Origin: Clostridia bacterium
GTDB lineage: Bacteria > Bacillota > Clostridia > Christensenellales > CAG-138
Assembly: GCA_017395105.1 (NCBI GenBank)
Contig: JAFPWD010000049.1
Span: 1 to 48,676, forward strand
Length of the DNA: 48,676 nt
Reading direction: 5' to 3'
The translations under genes were made by a program, and so were the position numbers. Shown piece by piece: positions 3,822 to 29,561 of this stretch (positions are counted from its first letter, which is position 1; each line of letters begins with the position of its first letter). The notes under the pieces are model-generated. The model had not been told where the DNA came from. It did no database searches and worked only from the letters and a program-made list of their open reading frames with translations.

Positions 3822-4043
3822 ATGAAAACTTTGAAAGAAACCCCCATTGGCGCAACAGTCCGCGTTGTGAAGCTTCACGGCGAGGGCGCAGTCAAGCGCA
3901 GGATCATGGACATGGGCATCACCAAGGGCGTGGAGGTGCACGTTCGCAAGGTGGCGCCGCTCGGCGATCCGATCGAGGTCAATGTGCGCGGCTACGAGCT
4001 CTCCATCCGCAAGGCGGATGCGGATATGATTGAGGTGCAGTAA
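3822..4043 (+). CDS. feoA: FeoA family protein (second copy)
   Basis: A 73-residue FeoA/SH3-like protein: P-I-G near the N-terminus, G-x-G-A-V-K-R-R-I-M-D-M-G-I-T-K-G in the middle and a terminal strand ending Y-E-L-S-I-R-K-A-D-A. The ATG has a strong GGGAGG 7 nt upstream. It differs clearly from the first FeoA (different charge pattern, R-R-I-M-D-M-G instead of H-L-S-D-L-G), which suggests old paralogues with separate roles. The gap of 120 nt to feoB holds a weak hairpin with a T-run (4078-4097) and a second operator-like palindrome. Confidence 0.92.
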   Translation: MKTLKETPIGATVRVVKLHGEGAVKRRIMDMGITKGVEVHVRKVAPLGDPIEVNVRGYELSIRKADADMIEVQ

Positions 4044-4077
4044 CCTCGGCTTTTAGCGCCGCTTCGACCGAAAACGC

Positions 4078-4097
4078 GCGGATGATCCGCATTTTTT
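4078..4097 (+). terminator. Weak internal terminator-like hairpin before feoB
   Basis: GCGGAT / ATCCGC around one base (4078-4090) followed by ATTTTTT. The usable stem is short, so at most this would attenuate read-through from feoA to feoB. Confidence 0.3.
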
Positions 4098-4108
4098 ACG
4101 GCAAACAT

Positions 4109-4124
4109 GTTAGCTTTAGCTAAC
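4109..4124. promoter_or_regulatory. Putative operator 2 of the feo operon (inverted repeat)
   Basis: Perfect palindrome with 7-bp arms GTTAGCT / AGCTAAC around TT. It has the same GTTAG-N6-CTAAC spacing as the repeat at 3443-3458 on the main promoter, which makes a shared regulator likely. It is 40 nt upstream of the feoB start. Confidence 0.55.
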
Positions 4125-4163
4125 TTAAAGAGCCTAAACAAACGGCAAACAGGAGAAAATATT

Positions 4164-6575: not shown

Positions 6576-6604
6576 AATTCGGGCAAATGTGAGCGTATAA
6601 TAAA

Positions 6605-6637
6605 GCATCCGGCAGAGGAAAAGCCCCTGCCGGATGC
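6605..6637 (+). other. Stem-loop between feoB and the Cys-rich gene
   Basis: A perfect 11-bp stem (GCATCCGGCAG / CTGCCGGATGC) with an 11-nt loop and no T-run. It may stabilise or process the feo mRNA; it is not a standard terminator. A TATAAT lies at 6596-6601 without a -35 box. Confidence 0.5.
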
Positions 6638-6662
6638 GCGCATACAAAATCGAGGTGATATC

Positions 6663-6854
6663 ATGTTTCAATGGTTAGGTAAAAATATCGGAACTATCAT
6701 CGTGCTTGCGTTGATAATCGCGGGCGTAGTCAGCGTGATACGCAGCATGATAAAGGAGAAAAAGAACGGCGGCTCGTCCTGCGGCTGCGGCTGCTCAAGC
6801 TGCGCAATGAGCGGAAGCTGCCACGGCACGGGCGAAAGCGCCCAAAGCAAATGA
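6663..6854 (+). CDS. FeoB-associated Cys-rich membrane protein
   Basis: A 63-residue protein with one N-terminal membrane segment (about residues 8-28), a basic stretch R-S-M-I-K-E-K-K and a C-terminal cluster of five cysteines (C-G-C-G-C-S-S-C-A-M-S-G-S-C) plus a histidine. This is the FeoB-associated Cys-rich family, almost always found directly after feoB in Firmicutes; it may pass iron to or from the FeoB pore, but its role is not proven. A GAGGTGAT ribosome-binding site precedes the ATG. The operon ends just after it at a two-way terminator. Confidence 0.92.
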   Translation: MFQWLGKNIGTIIVLALIIAGVVSVIRSMIKEKKNGGSSCGCGCSSCAMSGSCHGTGESAQSK

Positions 6855-6870
6855 CGGTACCAAATGAATC

Positions 6871-6901
6871 AAAGCCCTGCGTCTCAAAAACGCAGGGCTT
6901 T
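6871..6901. terminator. Bidirectional terminator between feo and the LRR-dockerin genes
   Basis: A perfect 12-bp stem (AAAGCCCTGCGT / ACGCAGGGCTTT) with a 7-nt loop, placed between convergent genes. The A/T ends of the stem serve both directions; T-runs are short. Confidence 0.75.
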
Positions 6902-6937
6902 GGTATTTTCTAAACGCCGATCAGCTCGGAAAGTGGC

Positions 6938-8224
6938 TCACAGCCCCATTCCCATGCGCAGTATGCTGATGGCATCGGCGATGGTGATGCTGCCGTTGCC
7001 GTCCATATCGGCGGCAGCGGTATCGAGCGCGTTTTCATCGATAAGTCCCATGGAAAAGCGCAGCGTGAGGATCGCATCGGCAATGGTAACGCTGCCGTTT
7101 CCGTCCGCATCTCCGGGAAGCGAAGCGCCGCCCTCGAACCTTGCGATGAAAACAACGCCGTCAAGCTCGCTTGCCTCGTACTCGGGGTTCATCGAGATAA
7201 GCTCGTTCTCCGCGTTGTACCAGCCCGCGAAGGTATAGCCGTCATCGGGCTGCGCATATACCTTGGTGTACCAGCCGCTGAGCTCGCAGCCGACGGTGCC
7301 GCCGGGCTCGGACTTGAGGGTGTTTAGCATAAGGATCTCGTTTGCCTCAAGATCGTAAGTCGTAGTCGGATTGCCGACGCTGTAAAGCCCGAGCAGGTCG
7401 GGATTATGAGAAACGTCGATATACTCAAGTCCCGTGCGGTTTATGCGAAGCGACTGAAGGCGAGCGTTTTCGGAAACGTCCAGTCCGTTGTAAAGATCGT
7501 TGTCCGAAACGTTCAGAGAATCGAGCATGGAGAGCATGGACACGTCGATACCGTTCAAGAGATTGTCCGAAACGTCCAGCATCTCAAGGCTCGTATTGCT
7601 TGAAACGTCCAGATCGACGAGCATATTGCCGCTGCAGGTCAGCTGAACGAGGCCATCATTGGCGGAAACGTCGAGATCCATGAGCAGATTGCCGTCGCAG
7701 CGGAAGAAGTGGAGCATGGGGCAGACCGAAACATCGATAGCCTCAAGCCGATTGTTGTAGCAATCGAAGGTCCAAAGCGAGGTGCAGCCGCTGAGGTTGA
7801 TGCCTTCGATCTCGTTTGCGGAGATATTTGCATAGTAGAGCTCGGAAAAGCCCGAAAGATCCAGCTCGCCCACGAGCTGCTTATCGTAAACAAGGATGCG
7901 GCGAACGCGGTATTCGCCGTCAAACTGCTCCCAGGAGAAGGTGGGCATTTCGGAGTAGTAGTCGGGATCGTAGCAGATGCCCCAGGTGGCGGGATAGCTC
8001 GGATCGTAGCTCGAGCTGAGCTTTGAGCCGTTCTTTACGCCGCTAGCGTCCGCCAATTCAAGGAAAGCGGCTATTTTGTTGTAGTCGTTTTCATTGTAGC
8101 CCGCGGGAACGCTCCACGCGGGGGAGATCTCCGCTTTGAGTGCGGAAAAGGGGAGGTGAGTTGCGCTGAGGGCTAACAGCAGCGCGAGTGCCGCCGAAAG
8201 GACGGCTTTTGCGAGGTTTTTCAT
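6938..8224 (-). CDS. Secreted LRR protein with InlB-like repeat and C-terminal dockerin (paralogue 1)
   Basis: 428 residues. A signal peptide (about 1-31, K-N-L-A-K then a hydrophobic run) is followed by a domain that starts S-V-P-A-G-Y-N-E-N-D-Y. Residues about 115-315 hold roughly nine 21-residue leucine-rich repeats of the pattern L-x-x-L-x-C/V-S-x-N-x-L-x-x-L-D-V-S, like the Cys-ladder repeats of internalin J. Then come a divergent InlB B-repeat-like domain (D-D-G-Y-T-F-A-G-W-Y) and a dockerin type I pair: D-A-D-G-N-G-S-V-T-I-A-D and D-M-D-G-N-G-S-I-T-I-A-D. No LPxTG anchor, so the dockerin probably docks to a cohesin elsewhere. A GGAG site precedes the ATG. First of three tandem paralogues. 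Confidence 0.85.
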   Translation of the reverse strand: MKNLAKAVLSAALALLLALSATHLPFSALKAEISPAWSVPAGYNENDYNKIAAFLELADASGVKNGSKLSSSYDPSYPATWGICYDPDYYSEMPTFSWEQFDGEYRVRRILVYDKQLVGELDLSGFSELYYANISANEIEGINLSGCTSLWTFDCYNNRLEAIDVSVCPMLHFFRCDGNLLMDLDVSANDGLVQLTCSGNMLVDLDVSSNTSLEMLDVSDNLLNGIDVSMLSMLDSLNVSDNDLYNGLDVSENARLQSLRINRTGLEYIDVSHNPDLLGLYSVGNPTTTYDLEANEILMLNTLKSEPGGTVGCELSGWYTKVYAQPDDGYTFAGWYNAENELISMNPEYEASELDGVVFIARFEGGASLPGDADGNGSVTIADAILTLRFSMGLIDENALDTAAADMDGNGSITIADAISILRMGMGL

Positions 8225-8257
8225 AGCTTTCTCCTTTGCGTATGATAGGATATTTTC

Positions 8258-8287
8258 ATTTTACCCGCACGAACGCCGCGTTGTCAA
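8258..8287 (-). promoter_or_regulatory. Sigma-A promoter of LRR-dockerin paralogue 1
   Basis: On the minus strand TTGACA (8282-8287), 18-nt spacer, TAAAAT (8258-8263), 34 nt before the start codon. It lies after the terminator of the upstream paralogue, so this gene is its own unit. Confidence 0.75.
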
Positions 8288-8349
8288 TATTCCAAATAAA
8301 AATAAGCAATAATAAACAATAATACAGCGAGGCACACTTTTTATATACG

Positions 8350-8372
8350 AAAAACGGGCGGTCTTCCGCCCG
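8350..8372 (-). terminator. Terminator after LRR-dockerin paralogue 2
   Basis: On the minus strand CGGGCGG-AAGA-CCGCCCG followed directly by TTTTT. A textbook intrinsic terminator. Confidence 0.85.
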
Positions 8373-8389
8373 AATCGTTTAAAAGGGTT

Positions 8390-9715
8390 TTATACGTTCA
8401 TCGCCATTCTTAAAACAAGAAGCGCATCGGTCGAGTTTACTGCGCCGTTGCCGTCCGCATCGCTGTTTTCAAGATCGAGCTCGGTTCCGTCGATGATATT
8501 CATAGCGCAACGCATGATGAGCACCGCATCGGAGATCGAGATCTCGCCGTCGTCGTCCGCATCGCCGATGAGGAACGGGGATTCAAACACGGCAACGATA
8601 TCGGTATAGGCAAGGTTCTTGAGGTTGAGCTGAGTGCTTGCGGAGATCTCGTTATCCTCGGTATCAAACCAGCCCGCGAAGCGGCAGTCGCCCTCGGGCA
8701 CAGCCTCGGCATAGCCGTAATCGTAGTTCCCGTTGTAGTAGTAGCCCACGAAGCCCTCGCCAACGGCAGTCACGCTTTCGAGCTTGAGCAGGGGATTGCT
8801 TGAAAGATCGAATTCGGCTATCTCGTTGCCAACGCAGTAGAATTCGCGAAGCATCGGGCAGAATGAAATATCGATCTCGTTGATTGCGTTGCTGGAGCAG
8901 TCGAGCAGCTCGAGCTTTTCGCAGCCCGAAATATTCAGCGCTTCAATGCCGTTATTCTGGCAGGAAAGAAACTGCATTTCGGGGCAGGACGAAGTATCAA
9001 GAGAAGTCAGATTGCAGTTCGGCGCCCAAAGGTTGTAGAGCGAAGCACAATCGCTTAAATCAAGCTCGGAAAGCGGCGCGTTTTCGCAGGAAAAATCGGT
9101 CAGATTCTCGCAGCCCGAAAGGTTTACCGTTTCCAAATCGGTGTAGTTACAGGTAACGAAGGTTATGCTCGGGCAGCGGGAAAGATCGAGCGAAGTAAGC
9201 GGCATATTGTCGCACCAAAGCTGCTCAAGAAGGCTGCACTCGGAAAGCTCGATCTCGGTTATATAGTTGCCGCCGATCTGAAGCTCCTTTAGAGCGGAGC
9301 AGCCTCCGATATCAAGCCCCAAAAGCCCACATTCGCTGACGATCAGCGCTTCAAGTGCGGTGCAGGATGAAACATCGAGCGCACCGAAAAGGTTGTTCCA
9401 GCCAACGTTCATTCGCTTGATGCGGTTTTCGCCGTCAACCTCGATCCACTCAAAGCGGGTGATGTAGGGATTGCCCTCCCAGGTCGCGGGATCGTTTGCA
9501 TCGTAGCCGCTGCCGATCTTTTCGCCGTTTTTAACGCCGCTCTCGTCCTCGATCTCGAGGAAGGAAGCAACGGCGATATAGTCGTGCTCGTTATAGCCCT
9601 CGGGCACTGTGATATCCGCCTCTGCGGAGCCGAAGCGGGGCGCGAAGCCGAAGGAAGCGAGCGCGAAAACCGCCGCAACCGCCGCCGCAATGGTCTTTTT
9701 GAAGAATCTGTTCAT
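8390..9715 (-). CDS. Secreted LRR protein with C-terminal dockerin (paralogue 2)
   Basis: 441 residues with the same plan as its neighbours: signal peptide (about 1-32), the V-P-E-G-Y-N-E-H-D-Y start of the mature protein, a G-V-K-N-G segment, then about ten leucine-rich repeats (about 105-330). Here the repeats more often carry S-x-C in place of S-x-N (L-D-L-S-x-C-x-x-L), giving a denser cysteine ladder than in paralogue 1. An A-G-W-F InlB-like domain follows, then a dockerin pair with D-A-D-D-D-G-E-I-S-I-S-D and D-A-D-G-N-G-A-V-N-S-T-D. AGGAGG stands 8 nt before the ATG. It has its own promoter and terminator. Confidence 0.85.
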   Translation of the reverse strand: MNRFFKKTIAAAVAAVFALASFGFAPRFGSAEADITVPEGYNEHDYIAVASFLEIEDESGVKNGEKIGSGYDANDPATWEGNPYITRFEWIEVDGENRIKRMNVGWNNLFGALDVSSCTALEALIVSECGLLGLDIGGCSALKELQIGGNYITEIELSECSLLEQLWCDNMPLTSLDLSRCPSITFVTCNYTDLETVNLSGCENLTDFSCENAPLSELDLSDCASLYNLWAPNCNLTSLDTSSCPEMQFLSCQNNGIEALNISGCEKLELLDCSSNAINEIDISFCPMLREFYCVGNEIAEFDLSSNPLLKLESVTAVGEGFVGYYYNGNYDYGYAEAVPEGDCRFAGWFDTEDNEISASTQLNLKNLAYTDIVAVFESPFLIGDADDDGEISISDAVLIMRCAMNIIDGTELDLENSDADGNGAVNSTDALLVLRMAMNV

Positions 9716-9749
9716 GGATTTATCCTCCTGTTTGCTCTTAGCAAGGCTT

Positions 9750-9778
9750 ATTGTAAATAATCAGCTCCGAATTGTCAA
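9750..9778 (-). promoter_or_regulatory. Sigma-A promoter of LRR-dockerin paralogue 2
   Basis: On the minus strand TTGACA (9773-9778), 17-nt spacer, TACAAT (9750-9755), 34 nt before the ATG. Confidence 0.8.
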
Positions 9779-9812
9779 GCGGCAAAACGGAATTTGGCGT
9801 TTACGGGAACGC

Positions 9813-11162
9813 TCAATTCAGCCCCATTGCAAGCCTAAGTATCATCACCGCATCGGCTATGGCAACGCTGCCGTCGTTGGTTGCATCGGCGTTGATAAGG
9901 TTGATCGCATCGGAGCCAATAAGCCCCATCGCAAAGCGAAGCGCGAGGATCGCATCGGCAATGTTCACGCTGCCGTTTCCGTCTGCATCGCCCACAAGCA
10001 CGGGGGAGGCGGGTGTGAAGAGCGCGGTCAGCTCGGTGTAAGCCGTGTTCCAAATGCTGATATAGGGCGAAGCGGTGATGAACGCGCCGTTCTGATCGTA
10101 CCAGCCCACGAAAACATAGCCCTCGTCAGCTTTTGCCGAGAGGAAGCCCTCGCTGTACGGCACGGAGTAGTGATAGCCGAAGCAGCCGCTGCCCTCGGCG
10201 CGAACGGTGTCGAGCCCGAGGCGGTCGTTGAGCTTGAGATAGGTGAAGCTGTTGCCCGCGCCGTCAAGCTCCTTTAGTGCGGTGTTTGCGGAAACGTCCA
10301 GCTCGCTTATCGCATTGTTCATAACGTCCAGAAGAACAAGATTTGTGTTGTTTCCAAGCACAAGCTCGGTGATCTCGCTGTTTGCCGCAAACAGCTTATA
10401 AAGCTTCGTATTTGCCGAAAGGTCGAGCCTTTCAAGGCTGTTTTCGGGGCACCAAAGCCATGTAAGCGCCGTATTCAAGGAAAGATCGAGCTCGGTAAAA
10501 AGGTTGTTTGCGCAGTAGAGCTCCCCAAGCATGGGCTGGTTTGAAAGATCGAGCTCGGTCAGAAGATTGTTGTTGCAGTCCAGTGCATAGAGCAGGGGAT
10601 TGTTTGAAAGATCGAGCTCGGTCAAATCGTTTCCATCGCACCAAAGCTTGTAAAGAAGCGGATGCTCCGAAACGTCTATGCTGCCAAGTCCGTTATTGTC
10701 GCAGTAAAGCTCGCGCAGTGCGCCGCAGCCGTGCGTGTTGATAGCATCGAGGTTATCGCCGGTAGCTTCGATATACTCAAGATACGGGCAATCCGTAAGC
10801 TCAAGCGTGCCGACAACGCCGAGAAACGCCACATCGATGCGCCAAAGGTATTTAACGCCGTTCTGCTCCGTCCAAAGCACGTGCTCGAACACGGCGTTCA
10901 GCTCGTCTATGCTGATCCAGGTTTCGGGATCGTTCGGATCGTAGCCCGAATCCATGCGAGAGCCGTTCTTAACGCCGTTTTCATCGGTTATCTCGAAGAA
11001 CGCGGCGCATTTATCGTAGTCGTGCGCATCGTAGCCCGCGGGCACAGTCCATGTGCGCGAGGGCGTAACTTCGGCACGGACGGCAAGGAGCGCGGGGAAG
11101 ATGGAAAATGCGCAGAGAATCAGCGCAAGTGCGGCCGAAACGAGGGTTCGAGTTTTTTTCAT
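9813..11162 (-). CDS. Secreted LRR protein with C-terminal dockerin (paralogue 3)
   Basis: 449 residues: signal peptide (about 1-31), a mature start W-T-V-P-A-G-Y-D-A-H-D-Y matching the other two, about nine internalin-J-like repeats (L-x-x-L-x-C-D-N-N-x-L-T-E-L-D-L-S-N-x-P), an InlB-like domain (D-E-G-Y-V-F-V-G-W-Y) and a dockerin pair (D-A-D-G-N-G-S-V-N-I-A-D and D-A-T-N-D-G-S-V-A-I-A-D). In the second loop T replaces the third-position D, which may weaken calcium binding. AAAGGAG precedes the ATG. The three paralogues differ mainly in the repeat faces, which suggests divergent ligand binding (inference). Confidence 0.85.
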   Translation of the reverse strand: MKKTRTLVSAALALILCAFSIFPALLAVRAEVTPSRTWTVPAGYDAHDYDKCAAFFEITDENGVKNGSRMDSGYDPNDPETWISIDELNAVFEHVLWTEQNGVKYLWRIDVAFLGVVGTLELTDCPYLEYIEATGDNLDAINTHGCGALRELYCDNNGLGSIDVSEHPLLYKLWCDGNDLTELDLSNNPLLYALDCNNNLLTELDLSNQPMLGELYCANNLFTELDLSLNTALTWLWCPENSLERLDLSANTKLYKLFAANSEITELVLGNNTNLVLLDVMNNAISELDVSANTALKELDGAGNSFTYLKLNDRLGLDTVRAEGSGCFGYHYSVPYSEGFLSAKADEGYVFVGWYDQNGAFITASPYISIWNTAYTELTALFTPASPVLVGDADGNGSVNIADAILALRFAMGLIGSDAINLINADATNDGSVAIADAVMILRLAMGLN

Positions 11163-11198
11163 TTGTAAAGGCTCCTTTAGCTATAATCAAACGCTTTA

Positions 11199-11207
11199 AT
11201 TATAACA
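11199..11207 (-). promoter_or_regulatory. Possible extended -10 promoter of LRR-dockerin paralogue 3
   Basis: On the minus strand TGT followed by TATAAT. No good -35 hexamer. It lies inside an inverted repeat GGCTCCTTT (11170-11178) / AAAGGAGCC (11211-11219), whose one arm includes the ribosome-binding site of this gene; pairing could mask that site. Confidence 0.4.
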
Positions 11208-11229
11208 TAAAAAGGAGCCGTCTATATGT

Positions 11230-11760
11230 TTAAAAATTTATATTCCCGATTATATTCCGATAGATCGCTTCAAGCTGCCTGTCGTTCTTGCAGCGAATGA
11301 ATTTTTCGGGGTACTGCTTCGCGAGCCGCTCGTAATTCGCTTTTATCTCGCGCGTCCTGCCGTCATGCAGTATCCACTTGATAAACTCAAGGTCGATTTT
11401 CTCCTCACAGCCCTCGGTCATGCTCTCGCGCGTCTTGCCCTTGAACTTAAAATAGCGTTTATATGCCCGAACGAGGCAGCGAAGGGCGGGGTAATCGAGA
11501 AAGATTATCCTATCCGACTCCTCCATGCGCCGCTCATAGAAAAGCTTGGTATAGTTGCCGTCAATGATCCAGCCTTTAACCGCGTTTTTATCGAGAAATG
11601 CGGAAACCATCGCCATGCGCTCGCCGCGCTCCCGCGTTTTCCAGCCGGGCAGCCAATGCACGGTGTCAAGGTGCAGCACGGGCAGCTCGAGTGCCTCACC
11701 GAGCCTCCCCGCAAGCGTGCTCTTTCCCGAGCCGCTGTAACCGATTATCGCAATCCTCAT
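11230..11760 (-). CDS. P-loop nucleotide kinase-like protein (FlaR / DNA topology modulation family)
   Basis: 176 residues. The Walker A motif is G-Y-S-G-S-G-K-S-T (residues 7-15), followed by H-L-D-T-V-H-W-L-P-G-W and W-I-I-D-G-N-Y, all typical of the adenylate-kinase-like FlaR family (often labelled DNA topology modulation protein). Its substrate is not known. The start codon overlaps the stop of the upstream AEC transporter gene (ATGA at 11757-11760), so the two are translationally coupled. The family is small and soluble; length is normal. Confidence 0.8.
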   Translation of the reverse strand: MRIAIIGYSGSGKSTLAGRLGEALELPVLHLDTVHWLPGWKTRERGERMAMVSAFLDKNAVKGWIIDGNYTKLFYERRMEESDRIIFLDYPALRCLVRAYKRYFKFKGKTRESMTEGCEEKIDLEFIKWILHDGRTREIKANYERLAKQYPEKFIRCKNDRQLEAIYRNIIGNINF

Positions 11761-22348: not shown

Positions 22349-23024
22349 TTTGTTTTTCCACCTTTCCAATGTATGCGATAAATGCCGAAAGACTGATAGC
22401 CGCCGCGAGAAAATGCACCGCAAGCGGTATCGCCCTGATGATAAGCTCATACAGCGGCGCACCGTGCCTTATAAGCACGATGCAGCCGATTGTCCAAACC
22501 GCGCTCATCACCGCCGAGGGAACGAGCGAGCCTGTTTTTTCGTAGCTCACGAGGCTGAAAAGCGCAAGAAGAAGCGAAGCCGTAATTCCCGCCGCGCCAA
22601 TGCTCCAAACCGCATCGAGCTTCCCGAAAAATGCGGCGAGCAGCAAAAGATTTGCGGGAACTGCGGCAAGGCTCGCGTAAAACATTCGCAGGCTCACGAG
22701 ATAGCCGAAGGCATATTTCATCGTTCCCTTAAGCTCGATCACTTCGCTCTGCTCCTCCGAGAGCAGCGAAAGAAAGAAGAACGAAAAATAGGTCAGCGGA
22801 AATACCGCAAGCGCAAGAAAACCGCTTTGAGTGCGCTCAAGGCCGGATACCGAGCATATCACCACCAAAAGCAGGTACACAAGCATGCTTATCGCCGCCG
22901 TCAGCCAAGAATTATGAAAGATGACACGAAGGGGCGGGCGCTTCACCTTTTTTTGAAACGCGCTGTCGATAATGCTTTTCTTCTGCCGCGCTATCTCGGC
23001 CTCGCTTGGAAATTCGATTTTCAT
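22332..23024 (-). CDS. Membrane protein, candidate anti-sigma factor
   Basis: 230 residues: a cytosolic N-terminus of about 45 residues (K-I-E-F-P-S-E-A-E-I-A-R-Q-K-K), then six membrane segments. I recognise no family. Its position directly after the ECF sigma gene, with an ATGA overlap (23021-23024), is where anti-sigma factors are normally encoded, and the cytosolic N-terminus could hold the sigma factor; no zinc H-x-x-x-C-x-x-C anti-sigma motif is present. It could instead be a third permease-type subunit. Confidence 0.6.
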   Translation of the reverse strand: MKIEFPSEAEIARQKKSIIDSAFQKKVKRPPLRVIFHNSWLTAAISMLVYLLLVVICSVSGLERTQSGFLALAVFPLTYFSFFFLSLLSEEQSEVIELKGTMKYAFGYLVSLRMFYASLAAVPANLLLLAAFFGKLDAVWSIGAAGITASLLLALFSLVSYEKTGSLVPSAVMSAVWTIGCIVLIRHGAPLYELIIRAIPLAVHFLAAAISLSAFIAYIGKVEKQNAYGF

Positions 23025-23572
23025 TCCGCAAGCTCCTTTCTGATTCTCTTTATCATCGCGTAATAGCGTGTCTTTACCGTGCCTTCCGAAAGCCCAAGCT
23101 CCGAGGCGATCTCGGCGAATGTAAGCTCCTCAAAGCATTTCTTTTGAAATATGCGCACCAATGAAAGCTCATGCTCCGAAACGAGCCGCATTATTCTTTG
23201 CACTTCCTCGCGCTTTTCAAGCCTCTCCGTTATGTCGCCGTCGCCATCGAATGCGGGCTTGACCGAAAGCGATTCAAGCGGCCGTTCGTAAAGCCCCGCG
23301 CGATAAGCCTTGCTGCGGTAATGATCCGTCACCTTGTTTCCCGCGATGCGGTAGAGCCAGGTGCGAAAGCCCGCCTTTTTCTCGTCATAGCCACGTATCC
23401 CGCGAAAGGCCGCCGTGAAGGTCTCCTGCGTAAGATCGAGCGCAAGCTCGCGCTCGCCGCATTGGCGGTAGATATAGGCGTATATCTCGCGGTAATAGCG
23501 GTCGAAAAGCTCGTCCGCCGCCCGCCTGCTGCCGAGCTTCATGCGGCGTGTCAGCCGCGCATCGCTCATCAT
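23021..23572 (-). CDS. ECF-type RNA polymerase sigma factor
   Basis: 183 residues with sigma-70 region 2 (A-D-E-L-F-D-R-Y-Y-R-E-I-Y-A-Y-I-Y-R-Q through D-L-T-Q-E-T-F and F-R-T-W-L-Y-R-I-A-G-N-K) and region 4 (L-T-F-A-E-I-A-S-E-L-G-L-S-E-G-T-V-K-T-R-Y-Y-A). No regions 1 or 3, hence the ECF class. The ATG at 23572 is preferred over a GTG at 23581 because GGGAGG (23582-23587) fits it. The operon sigma-membrane protein-ATPase-permease-permease recalls sigY-yxlCDEFG of Bacillus subtilis in layout. A promoter like those read by ECF factors lies upstream. Confidence 0.92.
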   Translation of the reverse strand: MMSDARLTRRMKLGSRRAADELFDRYYREIYAYIYRQCGERELALDLTQETFTAAFRGIRGYDEKKAGFRTWLYRIAGNKVTDHYRSKAYRAGLYERPLESLSVKPAFDGDGDITERLEKREEVQRIMRLVSEHELSLVRIFQKKCFEELTFAEIASELGLSEGTVKTRYYAMIKRIRKELAE

Positions 23573-23602
23573 GCGCTTCACCTCCCCGTGGATGCATTGG
23601 TA

Positions 23603-23629
23603 TATACGAAGCCTCGGTGGAAATAGTTT
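23603..23629 (-). promoter_or_regulatory. Putative ECF-type (self-recognised) promoter
   Basis: On the minus strand CAAAAC (AAAC at 23626-23629), 17-nt spacer, CGTATA (23603-23608). This resembles the AAC / CGTA form of sigma-W-like ECF promoters and not the sigma-A form, so the sigma factor may drive its own operon. Confidence 0.55.
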
Positions 23630-23727
23630 TGGTTTGCTCCGTATATTTTGAAAAATAATAGCATAAATAGCCCCGATATGTCCATGCTTGACGAATCGAA
23701 GGCGCTTTTACCGTTTTGTGCCGACCG

Positions 23728-23762
23728 AAAAAAAGCAAAGAGGGAGGCGCGCCGCGCCTCCC
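23728..23762 (-). terminator. Terminator of the phage fibre/lysis cassette
   Basis: GGGAGGCGCG / CGCGCCTCCC palindrome (23742-23762), followed on the minus strand by a short gap and TTTTTTT (23728-23734). It closes the phage-derived unit before the ECF operon. Confidence 0.75.
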
Positions 23763-23805
23763 GAAAAATGAAGAACGATATTTGAAATGATCTTTGATTT
23801 TCCCG

Positions 23806-24006
23806 CTATTTGCACTCCGGCAGCCCCGCAAGGCTGGTGAGCATGGAGAGTACGCCGCTCAAAACCGCCGTTGCCGCGACCGTTCGCCAATCCACCTCTC
23901 CAAGAGCCGAAGCCGTGCCGATAAATGCAAGCGCGGACTGCGCCGTGGTGCGAAGTGCGCGAACGAGCGCCGCCTTGAACCATTCCTTAGTCAGTATTCC
24001 GTTCAT
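23806..24006 (-). CDS. Phage holin (r1t type)
   Basis: 66 residues. Start M-N-G-I-L-T-K-E-W-F-K-A-A-L-V-R-A-L-R-T-T-A-Q followed by two hydrophobic segments (about 24-35 and 40-60): the pattern of r1t-type holins, which form membrane lesions that release the endolysin. The ATG at 24006 has GGAAGTGAG upstream; the longer frame to 24114 runs inside the endolysin gene. It is 5 nt after the endolysin stop and ends the cassette. Confidence 0.85.
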   Translation of the reverse strand: MNGILTKEWFKAALVRALRTTAQSALAFIGTASALGEVDWRTVAATAVLSGVLSMLTSLAGLPECK

Positions 24007-24011
24007 CCCGC

Positions 24012-24740
24012 TCACTTCCTTCCGCTTCTTATCACCGCAAGCGAATATCTGCCGCTTTCGAGGATGAAATCGCCGATAACGGCGCAGACCTCGGCGTATT
24101 CCGCCTTGGGGCATTCAGCTTTGCCGCTCTTTTTCATATCCTCGAAGCAAAGCGCATCCTCATAGCCGAACTTAGCCTTCATAAGTCCGCGATGAGTCCA
24201 GCTTCTTGAATTGAACCTTGTTACTACCACGCCGTAAGCGATGCCCCGCGCTTCCACGATCAGCGGCTCGCCGTCCGACATGAAGCCGCAGACCCAGCCA
24301 ACGTGGTGCATCCTGCCGTTGCTCTCGCTCTTCATAAACACGGCCTCGCCGAGCACGAAATCGCGGGAGATAGACTTGATCTCGCCCTTGTCAACGCACC
24401 AATATTTATAGTTCATATCGGCGTTAATGTCGGTCTTTTCACCGAGATCATAGGTCATGTAGGCATCAAGAAGCCCCTGGCAGTCGGTCGCATAGCCGTC
24501 CTTCGGCCAGTCCTTCGTATAGGAATCGTACTTCTCGCGGCTCATGCTCTTGGAATAATGGTCGTTGAAATAGCGGTCTATGGTGTCCCTGTTCGTCTGA
24601 ACGCGAACGCTGCCGTAAAGGTACTCCCATTTCTCCGTGCCGCATTCCTCTTTCTTCACGGGAAGCAGCGCACCCTCGGGTATGCTTTCGCGCTTTGCGT
24701 GGGAGAGCGCACGGCGAATAAAATCCATTGCGTTATACAT
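24012..24740 (-). CDS. NlpC/P60-type endolysin (phage amidase/endopeptidase)
   Basis: 242 residues. The D-C-Q-G-L motif puts a nucleophilic Cys at residue 87, and H-H-V-G-W (His145/146) with a following E/N on the I-V-E-A-R-G strand completes a papain-like triad as in NlpC/P60 and CHAP-like enzymes that cut peptidoglycan stem peptides. There is no signal peptide, as expected for a holin-dependent endolysin, and no obvious separate wall-binding domain. GGGAGG precedes the ATG at 24740. It overlaps the end of the upstream 41-aa gene and is followed by the holin. Confidence 0.85.
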   Translation of the reverse strand: MYNAMDFIRRALSHAKRESIPEGALLPVKKEECGTEKWEYLYGSVRVQTNRDTIDRYFNDHYSKSMSREKYDSYTKDWPKDGYATDCQGLLDAYMTYDLGEKTDINADMNYKYWCVDKGEIKSISRDFVLGEAVFMKSESNGRMHHVGWVCGFMSDGEPLIVEARGIAYGVVVTRFNSRSWTHRGLMKAKFGYEDALCFEDMKKSGKAECPKAEYAEVCAVIGDFILESGRYSLAVIRSGRK

Positions 24741-24858
24741 TTTTATCCTCCCTGTTAATCTCGTCGAGAAGCTCCGCAACGCGGCTTCGAAGCCGCGCGG
24801 GAACGTCCTCAAGCTCCTTATAGCCCTTGATTATCAGTTCCGCATAGATAATTGCCAT
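24733..24858 (-). CDS. Small phage protein, CD1375-like
   Basis: 41 residues: M-A-I-I-Y-A-E-L-I-I-K-G-Y-K-E-L-E-D-V-P then A-R-L-R-S-R-V-A-E-L-L. This matches the short XkdX/CD1375-like proteins encoded between tail-fibre and lysis genes in phages of Clostridia, which read M-I-x-x-Y-x-x-L-I-x-x-G-x-x-x-x-x-x-V-P. A strong AGGAGG precedes the ATG. Its stop (24733-24735) overlaps the endolysin start, so the two are coupled. Confidence 0.75.
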   Translation of the reverse strand: MAIIYAELIIKGYKELEDVPARLRSRVAELLDEINREDKNV

Positions 24859-24860
24859 CC

Positions 24861-25253
24861 TCATTCCTCCTGTTCGATCAAACTCTCGTACAGCTCGCAG
24901 AGCGCAAGCTGAGTGTTCGTGAGCTGGCGAAACAGCTCCGCGTTTTCACTTTCAAGAAGTGAAATGCGCTCATTTTCACTCAAGCTGCGATCCTCATCAT
25001 CGCCCTGCTCCCATTTGGCGGCCTTCTCAAAGGCGGCATCGAGATCCGCTTCAATGGCGGAAACGGGGAGCACTGTGCGCATATACGCCTCATCCGCCGC
25101 CCATTTGATAACGTTAAGTCCTTCGCCGTCCTCGCCCTCCTCGGCGGCGAATTCGCGTATGTTCCTGCGAAGCCAGATATCCGCTTTGCCGTTGGGCAGC
25201 GGGGAATAGGTCAGGCTTTCGGGCCTATCGTTGAATACTGCATGCTTTATCAT
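24861..25253 (-). CDS. Phage-tail-associated protein of unknown function
   Basis: 130 residues. The first part (H-A-V-F-N-D-R-P-E-S-L, then A-D-I-W-L-R-R-N-I-R-E) resembles proteins found after tail-fibre genes in phages of Clostridia, and the C-terminal 45 residues are a probable coiled coil (L-S-E-N-E-R-I-S-L-L-E-S-E-N-A-E-L). It is acidic and has no signal peptide. AGGAGG stands 5 nt before the ATG. A chaperone or assembly role for the fibre is possible from its place but is inference. Confidence 0.65.
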   Translation of the reverse strand: MIKHAVFNDRPESLTYSPLPNGKADIWLRRNIREFAAEEGEDGEGLNVIKWAADEAYMRTVLPVSAIEADLDAAFEKAAKWEQGDDEDRSLSENERISLLESENAELFRQLTNTQLALCELYESLIEQEE

Positions 25254-25262
25254 ATTGCCTCC

Positions 25263-27896
25263 TTATCCGAGAGTTCCGATACTCTCTGCGTAAACGCCGC
25301 GATTGCCGCCTGTTCCGCAGGCGCGGCAAACCTCCATAGGACTCTTGAGATTGGTATCATATTCCGAGAGATACGCAAGGCCTGCCGCTGCGCTTCCGAT
25401 GAGGGAGCCGAACGTCAGAAGCTGCCTTGAACCCGACTCAACGGCGGCGCGGCGCTGCGATGCGCAGTAGCCTGTGGTGCTTGAAGCGCCAACTGCCGAC
25501 GCAAACATATAGGCCTCCTGATCCGCGGGCGGATCAAGCTCGGCCACGAACTGCAGCGAGGCGATGGGGTCAAGAAGGGCGATGCTCTCGGCGTTTGCGC
25601 TCGGCGCTGCCTGCGTGATGCTTGAGCTAAGCCGCTCCGTATAAGCCGCAAAGCGACCGCTCTGCCAAGTGATGAGAGTATCGGCAATGGATTCCGATGC
25701 GCCGATCATGACCTCTATGCCCTGAAGCTTGAAGGGCTCCTTACCGCTCTGATTATCGAACGGGCTGCCGTCGTTTCCGCGCACGTTATCGGTGCTGCCC
25801 GTGAACCAAGGCTGGGTGACCAGCTTGGTATTCAAGGTCGTGTCGAAGGTGCTGTCTACGTCAAGATTGATCGCCTTGTATGGCGTGCCGTCGAGCTCAA
25901 CGTCGGTTATGGATTCTATTGCGGCATAACCAACCGTTCCGTAAGCTTTATAGTTTGCCCTATCGTTGACCGTGCCAACGGAGACTGCGGAGCCGACAAG
26001 AAGCTTACTTGCCTGCGCGGAAGTAACGAGCACTCGCTTCACACCGGTTTCCGCAGCTGCGGCGGAGAGGCTTAGGTTGTAATCGCGGCAGCCCTTCATA
26101 ACGTTCGCCGAGCCGAGATTCGCATACTTTATCTCAAGCATCGTCTGCAAAAAAGCGTAATCGCACAGCCCCGCCCCGCAGTACTGAGCGCCCACAGCCT
26201 GCCATCTGGCGATCTGGTTATCATGGGATATGGAGCAGCTCACGTCCGCCGAGCCTCGGTATGCCGCAGGTATCGCGCCCGAGAAGCTGCCGAGCTTGCT
26301 TTGAGCATTCAGACCCGCCGCGTATTTGGCGTGGATCACGAACGGGCGAACGCTGTTGTCCGAAGCTCTGACCGCCTCGGGCAGGGGCTTGAAGCCGCTT
26401 TCCTTTTTATATGCGGCATACTCCACGGTCTTGGTGGTGGAGTCGGTCGTGCGGCGCACCCAGCCCGTCATTTGAAGAACGCCCACGAAGCTGCTTGCGG
26501 GAGCGGAGCTGAAATTGCCGTAAACGCCCTTGATTGCGCTGATAACGGGCTCAAGCGTGGTGCCGTCGATCGTGTAGTTGCAGTCGAAGCATGCAAACAG
26601 CGGCAGCTCGGCGTAATCGTCCCTTCCCGCCGTGAAATTCGTGGAGGGAACGCAAACGAGGTTCGCGTTCGCATCCCTCTTCGTGCCTGCTGGGGCGGAG
26701 GAGGTTTCATAAAGATAAAAGGTTGAGGTATAGGTCTCGCTTACGCACGCACCCGCCGCCGCAAAGAAGCGAAGCACAGCCGTGTCGAGTCCAACGAGCG
26801 GTGCGTTCGCCTCGCAAAACATGCGCAGCGCGGCCTTCGTGCCGTATTCGCGAATGAGGGCAAGCACTTCGAAAACATCGTTTCTGTCCATGTAGCCGCT
26901 GAATTCGGCGATGACGGCTGCAACACGCTGCTCCCTTGCAAGCTCCGCGGCGTTTCTTACAAGCTCGTTCTGTACGCGCTGCATCTCGTTCTGCTCGCGC
27001 ACAAGCTCGGCGGAAGATCGCACGCTTTCCTGCGCAGCTCGCGCACTCTCGGCGGAGGCGCGAAGGTTCTCCGCCGCCGTACGAAGGCTCTCGCTCCAAG
27101 CCCGATCTCCCTCGGCGGATGCTCTTGCTCGCTCGCTCGAAGCCCTCGAAGCTTCGGCATCGGCTCGCGCCGTTTCCGCACTTGCGCGCGCATTCTCCGC
27201 AGTTCGGCGTACTTCCTCGGCTTCCTGCCTTGACTGCTCGGCAAGATTGCGCCTGTATTCGGCAAGCTCCCTTGCGTTCTCGCCGCGCCCGCGCTCGGTT
27301 TCTGCGGCGGCGCGCTCGCTTTCCGCGCTCGTTCGGGCTCTCTCCGCCGCAGCTCTTGCGCTTTCGGCGGCCTGCCTGTCCTGTTCGTTTTCGTTCCTTG
27401 TCCGCTCCGCGCCCGCTCGCGCAGTCTCGGCTTCGTTGCGAAGATCCTCGTTGAATTGGCGGGCAAACTCCGCGCTCTGCCTCAAAAGCTCGGCAGCGGC
27501 TCGCGCACTCTCGGCATCCACTCGATCCGCTTCCGCGGCAACGCGCGCCATCTCGGCGGCAGCCTCAAGAGGGATAACGTCTCCATGTGCGAGCACGGAA
27601 TCGCGAACAGGGATGGAAACGGCGGTGGTGGTTGCAAGATCGCCCGCGTAAACTCCAACCTTCAGCTCGCCCGTGTATGCGGGCAGAAGCGGCAGCGTTA
27701 CGGTGTCGCCCGTGAAGGCGATATCGAACTGCCAGCCGTCTAAATCGAAGCGGGCGGTCTTGTGCGCATAGGCATCCCACTCGCCGTCAAGATCGAAAAC
27801 TATCTTTAGCTGCTTGTTGTCCGAAACAAGGTAGTCGCCGTAGCGTATCTCAGGCACCTTGTTTCGAACGGTTACCGTAAGTTTGCTGTTGTCCAT
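25263..27896 (-). CDS. Phage receptor-binding / tail-fibre-like protein with long coiled coil
   Basis: 877 residues. Residues 1-110 form a beta-rich domain (N-K-V-P-E-I-R-Y-G-D-Y-L and the F-D-L-D-G-E-W-D-A-Y stretch) like the baseplate-anchoring N-termini of phage fibre proteins. Residues about 111-335 are an Ala/Glu/Arg heptad coiled coil (repeated A-A-E-x-A-R-x-x-A-E units), the stalk. Residues 336-877 are a globular tip; the last 60 residues (L-T-F-G-S-L-I-G-S-A-A-A-G-L-A-Y-L and C-G-T-G-G-N-R-G-V-Y) look like the C-type-lectin-like ends of phage tropism proteins. The ATG at 27896 has GGAGG 5 nt upstream; the longer frame to 27962 is rejected. First gene of the cassette. Confidence 0.8.
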   Translation of the reverse strand: MDNSKLTVTVRNKVPEIRYGDYLVSDNKQLKIVFDLDGEWDAYAHKTARFDLDGWQFDIAFTGDTVTLPLLPAYTGELKVGVYAGDLATTTAVSIPVRDSVLAHGDVIPLEAAAEMARVAAEADRVDAESARAAAELLRQSAEFARQFNEDLRNEAETARAGAERTRNENEQDRQAAESARAAAERARTSAESERAAAETERGRGENARELAEYRRNLAEQSRQEAEEVRRTAENARASAETARADAEASRASSERARASAEGDRAWSESLRTAAENLRASAESARAAQESVRSSAELVREQNEMQRVQNELVRNAAELAREQRVAAVIAEFSGYMDRNDVFEVLALIREYGTKAALRMFCEANAPLVGLDTAVLRFFAAAGACVSETYTSTFYLYETSSAPAGTKRDANANLVCVPSTNFTAGRDDYAELPLFACFDCNYTIDGTTLEPVISAIKGVYGNFSSAPASSFVGVLQMTGWVRRTTDSTTKTVEYAAYKKESGFKPLPEAVRASDNSVRPFVIHAKYAAGLNAQSKLGSFSGAIPAAYRGSADVSCSISHDNQIARWQAVGAQYCGAGLCDYAFLQTMLEIKYANLGSANVMKGCRDYNLSLSAAAAETGVKRVLVTSAQASKLLVGSAVSVGTVNDRANYKAYGTVGYAAIESITDVELDGTPYKAINLDVDSTFDTTLNTKLVTQPWFTGSTDNVRGNDGSPFDNQSGKEPFKLQGIEVMIGASESIADTLITWQSGRFAAYTERLSSSITQAAPSANAESIALLDPIASLQFVAELDPPADQEAYMFASAVGASSTTGYCASQRRAAVESGSRQLLTFGSLIGSAAAGLAYLSEYDTNLKSPMEVCRACGTGGNRGVYAESIGTLG

Positions 27897-27938
27897 TTTG
27901 CCTCCGTATTCATTTGCTTTTTGGAACACATTGAAATG

Positions 27939-28018
27939 AAAGCAGACTTCACGGCTCCGCACGAAGAGCGGCGGGGCGCGCCGGTTGATAATAGGCTTTG
28001 TCTGCCGTGAAATGCTTT
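27939..28018 (-). other. Large stem-loop in the leader of the fibre/lysis cassette
   Basis: Two collinear arm pairs form a 14-bp stem: AAAGCA (27939-27944) with TGCTTT (28013-28018) and TTCACGGC (27948-27955) with GCCGTGAA (28004-28011). A competing pair GCAGAC (27942-27947) with GTCTGC (28000-28005) cannot form at the same time. The 170-nt leader is long for this window. Confidence 0.6.
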
Positions 28019-28065
28019 GGAACTTGAACCTGTCTTAGTGCGGAAGGGTATGAGCCTCTACTATT

Positions 28066-28094
28066 ATTATACCATATTTAAGAGAAAAACTCAA
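28066..28094 (-). promoter_or_regulatory. Sigma-A promoter of the fibre/lysis cassette
   Basis: On the minus strand TTGAGT (28089-28094), 17-nt spacer, TGG-TATAAT (28066-28071). A host-type strong promoter about 170 nt before the fibre gene. Confidence 0.8.
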
Positions 28095-28190
28095 TAATAA
28101 TTCGCTGTTTAAGAGAAAAATACCGAGAATTTCCCTCGTTAACGCCGCTTTCGCCGTGCGCCGATTTTGCGCAAATGTGTCGTTTATTGC

Positions 28191-28219
28191 TTGAAGAAAC
28201 GCGCCGTATCTGATATAAT
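28191..28219 (+). promoter_or_regulatory. Sigma-A promoter of the desulfidase-like gene
   Basis: TTGAAG (28191-28196), 17-nt spacer, TATAAT (28214-28219). Confidence 0.75.
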
Positions 28220-28274
28220 TGCTTTGATTATTCATTGACGGACAAAACTCCGAATCGTCACACGGGAGGTAACT

Positions 28275-29561
28275 ATGCTTAAAACGGACAGCCGATATTC
28301 AAGGTATATCTCAGCCCTCAAATCCGAGCTCGTGCCCGCTGCGGGCTGCACCGAGCCGATCGCCATCGCTTTTGCGGCGGCAAAGGCGCGCGCCGTGCTT
28401 GGAAAAATGCCCGAAAGCGTTGAAATAGTCGTCAGCGGCAATATAATCAAAAATGTAAAGAGCGTTGTCGTGCCGAATACGGGCGGCATGAAGGGAATCC
28501 AAACGGCGGCTGCTGCGGGCATCGCGGCGGGCGACGTTGAGCGCATACTCGAGGTCATAGCGGACGTGGACGATGCCGGCAGAGCGCGGATAAAGGAGTA
28601 TCTTGAAACCGCAAAGATGTGCGTTCGCCCTGCGGACAACGGCAAGATCTTCTATATCGACCTCACCGCAAGCGCGGGGGAGGATCATTCACGCGTTATA
28701 ATATCCGACTACCACACCAATATCGTTCGCATAGAGAAAAACGGCGAAACCGTCTATGAAAACGAAGCCGTCACCTTCGAGGGCGAGGACGGCGTTGTGA
28801 CCGAGCGCGATGCGATGACAATAAAGGAGATAATCGACTTTGCGGATACGGTCGATCTTGACGATATCGGCGAAACGATTAAGCGCCAGATAGCCTATAA
28901 TTCCGCGATAGCCGAGGAAGGGCTTAAAAACAACTACGGCGCAAATGTCGGAAAGGCGCTTATTGCGACCTTCGGAAACGATGTTAAGATCAGAGCGATG
29001 GCGGCCCCCGCTGCGGGCTCCGATGCAAGAATGAGCGGCTGCGAGCTTCCCGTTATAATCGTTTCGGGCAGCGGCAATCAGGGCATGACCGCTTCGCTCC
29101 CCGTTATCGAATATGCTAAAGAATACAATAAAACCGAGGAGGAGCTGATTCGCGCAGTTATCCTCTCCGACCTTATCACCATCCATCAAAAATCCTGGAT
29201 CGGCAGGCTCTCTGCGTTCTGCGGCGCGGTAAGCGCGGGCTGCGGAGCGGCGGCGGGCATAGCGTATCTGCTCGGCGGCGATTACGATATCATCGCCCAT
29301 ACTCTTGTAAATTCGCTTGCCATTATCTCGGGCGTTGTGTGCGACGGTGCGAAGGCAAGCTGCGCGGGCAAGATCGCGGCGGCGGTCAATGCGGGGCTGC
29401 TCGGGTATGGCATCTATATGAACGGCTCCCAGTTCTACGCGGGCGACGGCATAGTTTCAAAGGGCGTTGAAAACACGCTGAAAAACGTCGGCCGCCTCGG
29501 CAGCGACGGTATGCGCGAGACCGACAGGGAGATACTCAGGATAATGACGGATGAGGAATAA
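28275..29561 (+). CDS. L-cysteine desulfidase / serine dehydratase alpha-like family (UPF0597)
   Basis: 428 residues, full length for COG3681. Family motifs are A-A-G-C-T-E-P-I-A (near 22-30), T-G-G-M-K-G, A-A-P-A-A-G-S-D-A-R-M-S-G-C-E-L-P, G-S-G-N-Q-G-M and C-D-G-A-K-A-S-C-A-G-K; the conserved cysteines are thought to bind an Fe-S cluster. Characterised members break down L-cysteine to pyruvate, sulfide and ammonia, and the fold is that of Fe-S serine dehydratases. GGGAGG precedes the ATG. It is monocistronic between its own promoter and a strong terminator. Which amino acid it uses here is not decided by sequence. Confidence 0.9.
   Translation: MLKTDSRYSRYISALKSELVPAAGCTEPIAIAFAAAKARAVLGKMPESVEIVVSGNIIKNVKSVVVPNTGGMKGIQTAAAAGIAAGDVERILEVIADVDDAGRARIKEYLETAKMCVRPADNGKIFYIDLTASAGEDHSRVIISDYHTNIVRIEKNGETVYENEAVTFEGEDGVVTERDAMTIKEIIDFADTVDLDDIGETIKRQIAYNSAIAEEGLKNNYGANVGKALIATFGNDVKIRAMAAPAAGSDARMSGCELPVIIVSGSGNQGMTASLPVIEYAKEYNKTEEELIRAVILSDLITIHQKSWIGRLSAFCGAVSAGCGAAAGIAYLLGGDYDIIAHTLVNSLAIISGVVCDGAKASCAGKIAAAVNAGLLGYGIYMNGSQFYAGDGIVSKGVENTLKNVGRLGSDGMRETDREILRIMTDEE

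Follow-up and report, generated by a model that had tools for sequence, protein, structure and literature searches.

A phage-derived fibre and lysis cassette retained by Clostridia is the probable second locus of a podovirus-type gene-transfer-agent-like particle

In the gene transfer agent (GTA) of Rhodobacter capsulatus, RcGTA, the fibre and lysis genes lie outside the main head-tail cluster and are co-regulated with it, as those of the cassette introduced below would be; RcGTA differs in being siphovirus-like, alphaproteobacterial and under GafA/CtrA control. In Faecalibacterium prausnitzii, particle proteomics identified two GTA loci: FpGTA I, a podovirus-like head operon encoding terminase, portal, scaffold and capsid, and FpGTA II, a separate 5.5-kb operon encoding a baseplate protein, a tail fibre, a receptor-binding protein, a holin and an endolysin, which was not detected in some strains (PMC12946183). 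That account also places 3 of 25 GTA-like packaging events in Christensenellaceae, for which it names no locus. Here we describe a five-gene cassette in a 48,676-nucleotide stretch of DNA from a Clostridia bacterium (contig JAFPWD010000049.1), called the window. As a sequence-only reading of the window had claimed, all five open reading frames lie on the minus strand and are open and intact; they encode a fibre, a coiled-coil protein (CC), a CD1375-family protein, an NlpC/P60-like lysin and an r1t holin (Table 1). We propose that this cassette is probably the second locus, for fibre and lysis, of a domesticated podovirus-type GTA-like particle.

The window cassette and FpGTA locus II are alike in content, in separation from the head genes within a two-locus layout and in patchiness; in the present system a seemingly shared operator also ties the cassette to a head cluster elsewhere in the genome. 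The FpGTA loci belong to another bacterial lineage and were compared with the cassette by description, not by sequence; the present system is known from its genes alone. FpGTA II has a baseplate gene, whereas the window cassette has the CC and CD1375 genes instead. A shared operator, an in-cluster lysin lacking its motif Cys and a fibre tip of the kind diversified by diversity-generating retroelements (DGRs) receive no mention in the sections consulted of the FpGTA account (PMC12946183).

The genome that holds the window, G000, is a 1.9-Mb metagenome-assembled genome (MAG) of 58 contigs that is 68% complete. The sequence-only reading had advised looking for structural genes elsewhere in this genome, and a head cluster was indeed reached on contig C25 via a paralogue of the lysin; tailocin tail genes were outside that search. 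The cluster (3911-11267 of locus L028, G000:C25:38000-54000) encodes a scaffold-like protein, the major capsid protein, a coiled-coil protein and a lysin, followed by an adaptor and a nozzle-like protein. The capsid protein matched phrog_1357 (E 8e-67). Across the family it occurs in 92 of 103 genomes, in 44 of 50 high-quality genomes and in 23 of 26 genera, nearly always as a single match. Terminase and P22/SU10-like portal genes were profile-identified in G010 and G101. By similarity, terminase and portal genes were detected near the capsid gene in 14 of 27 capsid-bearing genomes, including the cassette-bearing G020, G022 and G025, a count that comes from stretches of unequal length, some with a contig end inside them, and in which 2 of the 14 are profile-identified. 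Phage-derived head and packaging genes are kept vertically as host genes, with only the head part seen in G000 itself. A host EamA gene is inserted within the G000 cluster. A second copy of the head cluster in G049 (L261, G049:C28:176001-192000) is seemingly broken or rearranged, with the capsid in two pieces and terminase and portal nearby; the other copy is on G049:C19.

The cassette and the head operon seem, from their promoters, to share an operator. TCTC-type sites were found upstream of the head operon in ten genomes of the genus, and at four cassette promoters and four head-operon promoters such sites form a direct-repeat pair, spaced 30-32 bp, close to a -10 element. The -10 element starts 14 bases after the second TCTC in cassettes and 34 bases after it in head promoters, a difference of about two helical turns. 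The bare pair occurred 36 times in 1.51 million strand-bases, and the only others with a nearby -10 were overlapping hits at one place in G016; the pair pattern had been loosened from TTCTC to [ATC]TCTC once the head promoters had been viewed. Scanning 11 whole genomes with the operator pattern gave 25 matches, compared to one for the reversed control. The matches stand before four cassettes, four head operons, four Y-family polymerase genes (the G020 protein was scanned, and the other three are nearly alike by reading), one holin gene (a holin_4_1 gene directly under the operator in G018, where no cassette was found), two replication-initiator-like genes and five mobile-element promoters, which were grouped by promoter likeness, with one downstream protein scanned (G020:C16) and the G020:C26 product not read. 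The remaining five lack a target in common and appear to be chance matches (G021:C19, G022:C28, G023:C1, G024:C1 and G025:C32). At the loci examined, six matches had the right spacing versus five in 22 other spacings combined; 30 letter-shuffled patterns gave a mean of 0.47 matches, yet two of them reached 5. The operator pair was also found at the head operon of G003, which belongs to another genus. Among the other targets, alike two-site-operator promoters precede mobile-element-like genes at L231 (G000:C10), L233 (G020:C16), L237 (G024:C84) and L238 (G024:C92), recognised by Pfam in L233 (NikA/MobC) and by eye in the rest. Replication-initiator-like proteins, judged by eye, come first under a cassette-type operator and promoter at L227 (G017:C24), with an HTH_36 match, and at L230 (G021:C34), with no Pfam match.

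We also built an 18-base matrix of the distal site. Its training sites were chosen by eye in the head promoters of G003 and of five genus genomes that lack a full cassette. Ranked over the available DNA of each genome, not over whole genomes, and counting either strand of the palindrome, the cassette site was second of 296,682 positions in G000, second of 72,254 in G024, first of 301,728 in G020, first of 207,796 in G025 and second of 177,830 in G022; on the coding strand it ranked 6, 4, 7, 6 and 3, respectively. The G000 site is operator site 1 of the window, with rank 6 on the minus strand and rank 2 on the other strand (28101-28118). Fibre and lysis genes are present at a second locus whose operator resembles that of the first, as judged from sequence. 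Both operons may answer one regulator. DNA-damage control is suggested solely by the promoters of the Y-family polymerase genes, which carry this operator as well.

The breadth of this operator also bears on an explanation that needs no particle. The cassette could be a stand-alone, stress-induced device for lysis and lectin release, under a regulator common with the head cluster, whose holin and lysin kill the cell and free the fibre or some other cargo. Since Y-family polymerase and mobile-element genes have the operator too, its presence at both loci is no proof that their products assemble together; moreover, the holin and lysin are intact, and the N-terminal domain of the window fibre is not homologous to the in-cluster fibres. 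Such a device would nevertheless leave unexplained why its released cargo is a tail fibre and why loss of the in-cluster fibre coincides with a Ser for Cys exchange in the in-cluster lysin, and we consider it unlikely.

That coincidence is seen across the head clusters. In G023, G003, G083 and G087, a fibre with a BppU_N-like start precedes the in-cluster lysin, which keeps the sequence DCQG. The in-cluster lysin has Ser in place of the motif Cys in all nine genus genomes without an in-cluster fibre (G000, G017, G018, G019, G020, G021, G022, G024 and G025) and Cys in all four clusters having both fibre and lysin. This count omits G008, whose lysin has no capsid nearby, and G049, where one cluster has no lysin and the second copy has a 30% match without the motif. 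All five cassette lysins keep Cys, His and Glu. The motif Cys is likely to be catalytic, judging from the NlpC/P60 motif. The sequence-only reading had named the window lysin an NlpC/P60 endolysin. The label rests on its conserved C87/H146/E163 and on the motif; the best Pfam match, Amidase_6 (E 0.022), fell below the cut-off, so we call the protein only NlpC/P60-like. In a lysin tree, the cassette lysins of G000, G024, G020 and G025 group with the lysins of a phage contig (L047) and of a G025 prophage, the in-cluster lysins form a separate group (support 92/96, short of the starred threshold) and the cassette lysin of G022 is placed apart from these. Another lysin paralogue in G000, with a peptidoglycan-binding domain, lies at 939-6117 of L027 (G000:C32) beside a 1371-aa protein with papain-like and lectin-like domains.

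To follow the cassette through the genus, we looked in relatives for the same genes between the same neighbours, a check that had been proposed from the window alone. The full cassette was found in G000, G020, G022, G024 and G025, which are five species, at one host locus, where it keeps to one side of the w16592/w18181 block. SDH-alpha is next to the cassette in G000, G024 and G025, as is the ECF/ABC operon in G000, G024 and G020. The fibre alone was found in G017 and G019, and G016 has neither capsid nor cassette. In six other genus members w16592 adjoins w11757, and the 10-20 kb read at that locus gave no match to cassette, tail or head queries except a 39-residue partial lysin match in G017. 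A related fibre in G021 lies outside the head cluster (8030-10070 of L086, G021:C11:24001-40000); its related N-terminal domain (43%) is followed by a weakly lectin-like protein and an 89-aa protein, and its promoter has TATAATAATAGTAGAGGC in common with the window promoter. The closest relatives that carry this fibre are Clostridia MAGs, of which several are apparently of rumen or gut origin and one is Christensenella sp. UBA1214.

The cassette is kept by its host, mostly under purifying selection as judged by ratios of nonsynonymous to synonymous substitution rates (dN/dS), and is not in plain decay, as had been surmised. NG86 dN/dS values against G000 were 0.16-0.28 for the fibre, CC and lysin, 0.15-0.29 for the holin (identical in G024) and 0.12-0.64 for the 41-codon CD1375 gene. 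No internal stops were found in the fibres of seven genomes, that of G024 being interrupted where a contig ends, or in the lysins of five. The cassette neighbours with a Pfam family are host-type: ABC transporter parts, an ECF sigma factor, LytTR, Sel1 repeats, SDH-alpha, an aminotransferase, a methyltransferase and Hsp33. As the sequence-only reading had expected, phage structural, packaging and integrase families were absent from 13 neighbouring genes by Pfam and from 10 of these by PHROGs, several having no match at all; the scans cover these genes and not those further out in the window. Its guess of a satellite-like trait found no backing, as no integrase or replication gene was detected among the scanned neighbours (the scans around the head clusters covered selected proteins). 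Slow decay of an old prophage remnant, already disfavoured, would agree with the foreign signature of the cassette, whose G+C content is 58.2% as against 53.2% in the window and exceeds that of all others among 90 stretches of its size, and with the two species that keep the fibre only. The open frames, dN/dS values mostly of 0.12-0.29 across species at one locus, the conserved promoter and the lack of tail or head matches at the site in six other genomes make this explanation highly improbable.

The phage origin of the cassette is clear by homology. A prophage in G025 (L032) carries tape measure, Dit and Tal genes, a distant lysin-like protein and then, in cassette order, CC (43% identical), CD1375 (58%), lysin (64%) and holin (56%), in line with the earlier proposal that the cassette follows the end of a siphophage late operon. 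In the 35-kb phage contig L047, a lysin gene whose product has 84% identity over 193 residues precedes a gene for an r1t-like holin (62%). These homologous modules are joined to tape measure, Dit and Tal genes (assigned by PHROGs in L032 and by eye in L047), whereas the cassette stands alone at a host locus. The fibre tip has confirmed relatives at 32 loci, 12 on genome contigs and 20 on viral contigs. Of these, 22 matched one phage reverse transcriptase (RT); the six loci from the genus (L142-L147) had no match. In seven fibre-tip loci examined, a template repeat (TR) follows the fibre, and 104 of 112 mismatches between TR and variable repeat (VR) fall at a template A. Given the RT and template repeats of its phage relatives, the window fibre tip therefore belongs to a DGR-diversified class. 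The DGR target fibres on genome contigs (L148, L149) and viral contigs (L154, L156-L161) have a homologous C-terminal tip, 50-54% identical, with the RT right after the fibre, whereas in the window CC starts 10 bp after the fibre. No phage-RT match was found in the window or in L142-L147, and no repeat of the fibre 3' end in 23000-29000. In the IMG/VR phage L157, which has a contractile tail (sheath, baseplate J) and a DGR on its fibre, a CC homologue comes right after the RT, and its kin are alike. The whole window fibre matched phrog_17147, of unknown function (E 1e-96). The fibre tip may resemble the C-type-lectin fold. No convincing relatives in the PDB were found for the fibre tip, the fibre N-terminus or the lysin.

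An alternative explanation is that a tailocin or prophages of the genus, themselves encoded at other sites, use the cassette as a tail-end module, a reservoir of fibre and lysis genes drawn on in trans or by recombination. The CC-CD1375-lysin-holin end of the G025 prophage and the 84% identity of the phage-contig lysin favour this explanation, as may the fibre itself, whose identity between G000 and G020 falls from 92% in aa 1-60 to 77-83% in aa 361-540 and to 37-58% from aa 541; with dS high along the whole gene, the tip may have changed fast or been exchanged. However, PF03354 terminase and PF04860 portal, found in seven of 11 genus genomes, had no match in G000, G019, G022 (96% complete) or G024; these counts cover those two families, neither of which the head cluster's own terminase and portal match, and sheath, tube and tape measure were not searched genome-wide. 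The cassette-type operator pair with a -10 hexamer was likewise in none of the prophage loci examined, most of which are incomplete. We therefore regard a tail-end module as quite improbable. The movable end of a tailocin encoded elsewhere was still the nearest of three guesses in the sequence-only reading: the evidence does point to a partner elsewhere in the genome, but to a podovirus-type head cluster.

Several observations weigh against the second-locus reading that we prefer. In the 18-base matrix the head promoters themselves rank 21 in G000, 7 in G024, 10 in G020 and 5 in G025, mostly via the proximal site (that of G022 is first), and the strict two-site form was never found at both promoters in any one genome. 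The 18-base distal-site matrix was made after a 12-base matrix of the proximal site had failed to single out the cassettes, ranking the cassette or fibre promoters 97 in G000, 43 in G024, 164 in G020, 399 in G025, 404 in G022, 326 in G017 and 641 in G019. Terminase and portal are not on G000 contig C25, which was searched whole, the search not extending to the rest of this 68%-complete genome. Presence in the genus is patchy: the full cassette is in five of ten capsid-bearing members, the fibre alone in G017 and G019, and no fibre was found in G018. The dS values are saturated (>1) in many cassette comparisons, and YN00 gave a dN/dS of 0.54 for CC versus G020; elsewhere, where run, YN00 broadly agreed with NG86. 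Lastly, the N-terminal domain of the window fibre is unlike the in-cluster fibres (profile comparison probability 0.7%), its sole phage relative (40%, 88 residues) stands in a gene order judged by eye to be siphophage-like, and no relatives of it were confirmed in viral contigs. For the first two of these reasons, docking of the fibre onto a podovirus-type head is unproven.

The features of the cassette are listed in Table 1. The r1t-type holin, the CD1375-like protein, the promoter and the terminator named in the sequence-only reading were all recovered, while the structured leader was not: its folding was not unusual (z -0.28), as 78 of 200 shuffles folded equally well. In 23000-29500, pattern counts exceeded expectation only slightly for the promoter class (8 found against 3.3 expected) and did not exceed it for the terminator class (7 against 8.0). 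The window promoter stands above chance because it is conserved in seven genomes. In the 11 genomes of the genus, every match to the cassette promoter pattern at 0-1 mismatch lay before a cassette; one more match, at three mismatches, is in G017.

Table 1. Genes and predicted signals of the cassette, with positions in the window
Feature	Position	Strand	Description
Fibre	25263..27896	-	877 aa from ATG; N-terminal domain, coiled coil, C-terminal tip of a kind diversified by DGRs in phages
CC	24861..25253	-	130 aa, coiled coil; homologues encoded after fibre and RT in phages, and before CD1375 in a prophage
CD1375-family protein	24733..24858	-	41 aa; NCBIfam NF040910, E 3e-10
Lysin, putative NlpC/P60-like endolysin	24012..24740	-	242 aa; C87/H146/E163 intact
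Holin, r1t family	23806..24006	-	66 aa; Pfam r1t holin, E 8e-12
Promoter, TTGAGT-17-TATAAT	28066..28094	-	Conserved across seven genomes, at the cassette or fibre promoter
Terminator-like hairpin	23742..23762	-	9 pairs (8 G-C), then a T-rich run
Operator site 1, TTCTCTTAAACAGCGAAT	28100..28117	-	Imperfect palindrome; first of a direct-repeat pair 31 bp apart
Operator site 2, TTCTCTTAAATATGGTAT	28069..28086	-	Second of the pair; overlaps the -10 region; rank 25 of 296,682

If the cassette is the second locus of a GTA-like particle, locus I on C25 would make the head from the scaffold-like protein, capsid, adaptor and nozzle-like protein (in sister species the terminase and portal genes lie close by), and locus II, the window cassette, would supply the receptor-binding fibre and a working lysis pair. 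Both operons would be switched on together through the same type of operator, perhaps upon DNA damage. The fibre and the head may form one particle, which may package host DNA. The holin would then breach the membrane and the lysin cut the wall, and the assembled particles would leave by lysis.

A wider proposal, which we hold with even odds, is that the podovirus-type GTA is a core trait of the family, and that this genus has handed fibre and lysis over to a plug-in operon of siphophage genes. The in-cluster lysin would have been made non-catalytic and both loci placed under one DNA-damage-type operator, so that transfer by lysis-borne particles would be part of the damage response. If true, the shared two-site operator would provide a sequence signature for finding scattered GTA parts, and the lysins would be a case of a GTA whose lysis enzyme fell silent in the main cluster and was supplanted by one of phage origin. 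The range of podovirus-type GTAs would then reach beyond Faecalibacterium into a family of Clostridia from gut and rumen that has the capsid gene in 92 of the 103 genomes searched.

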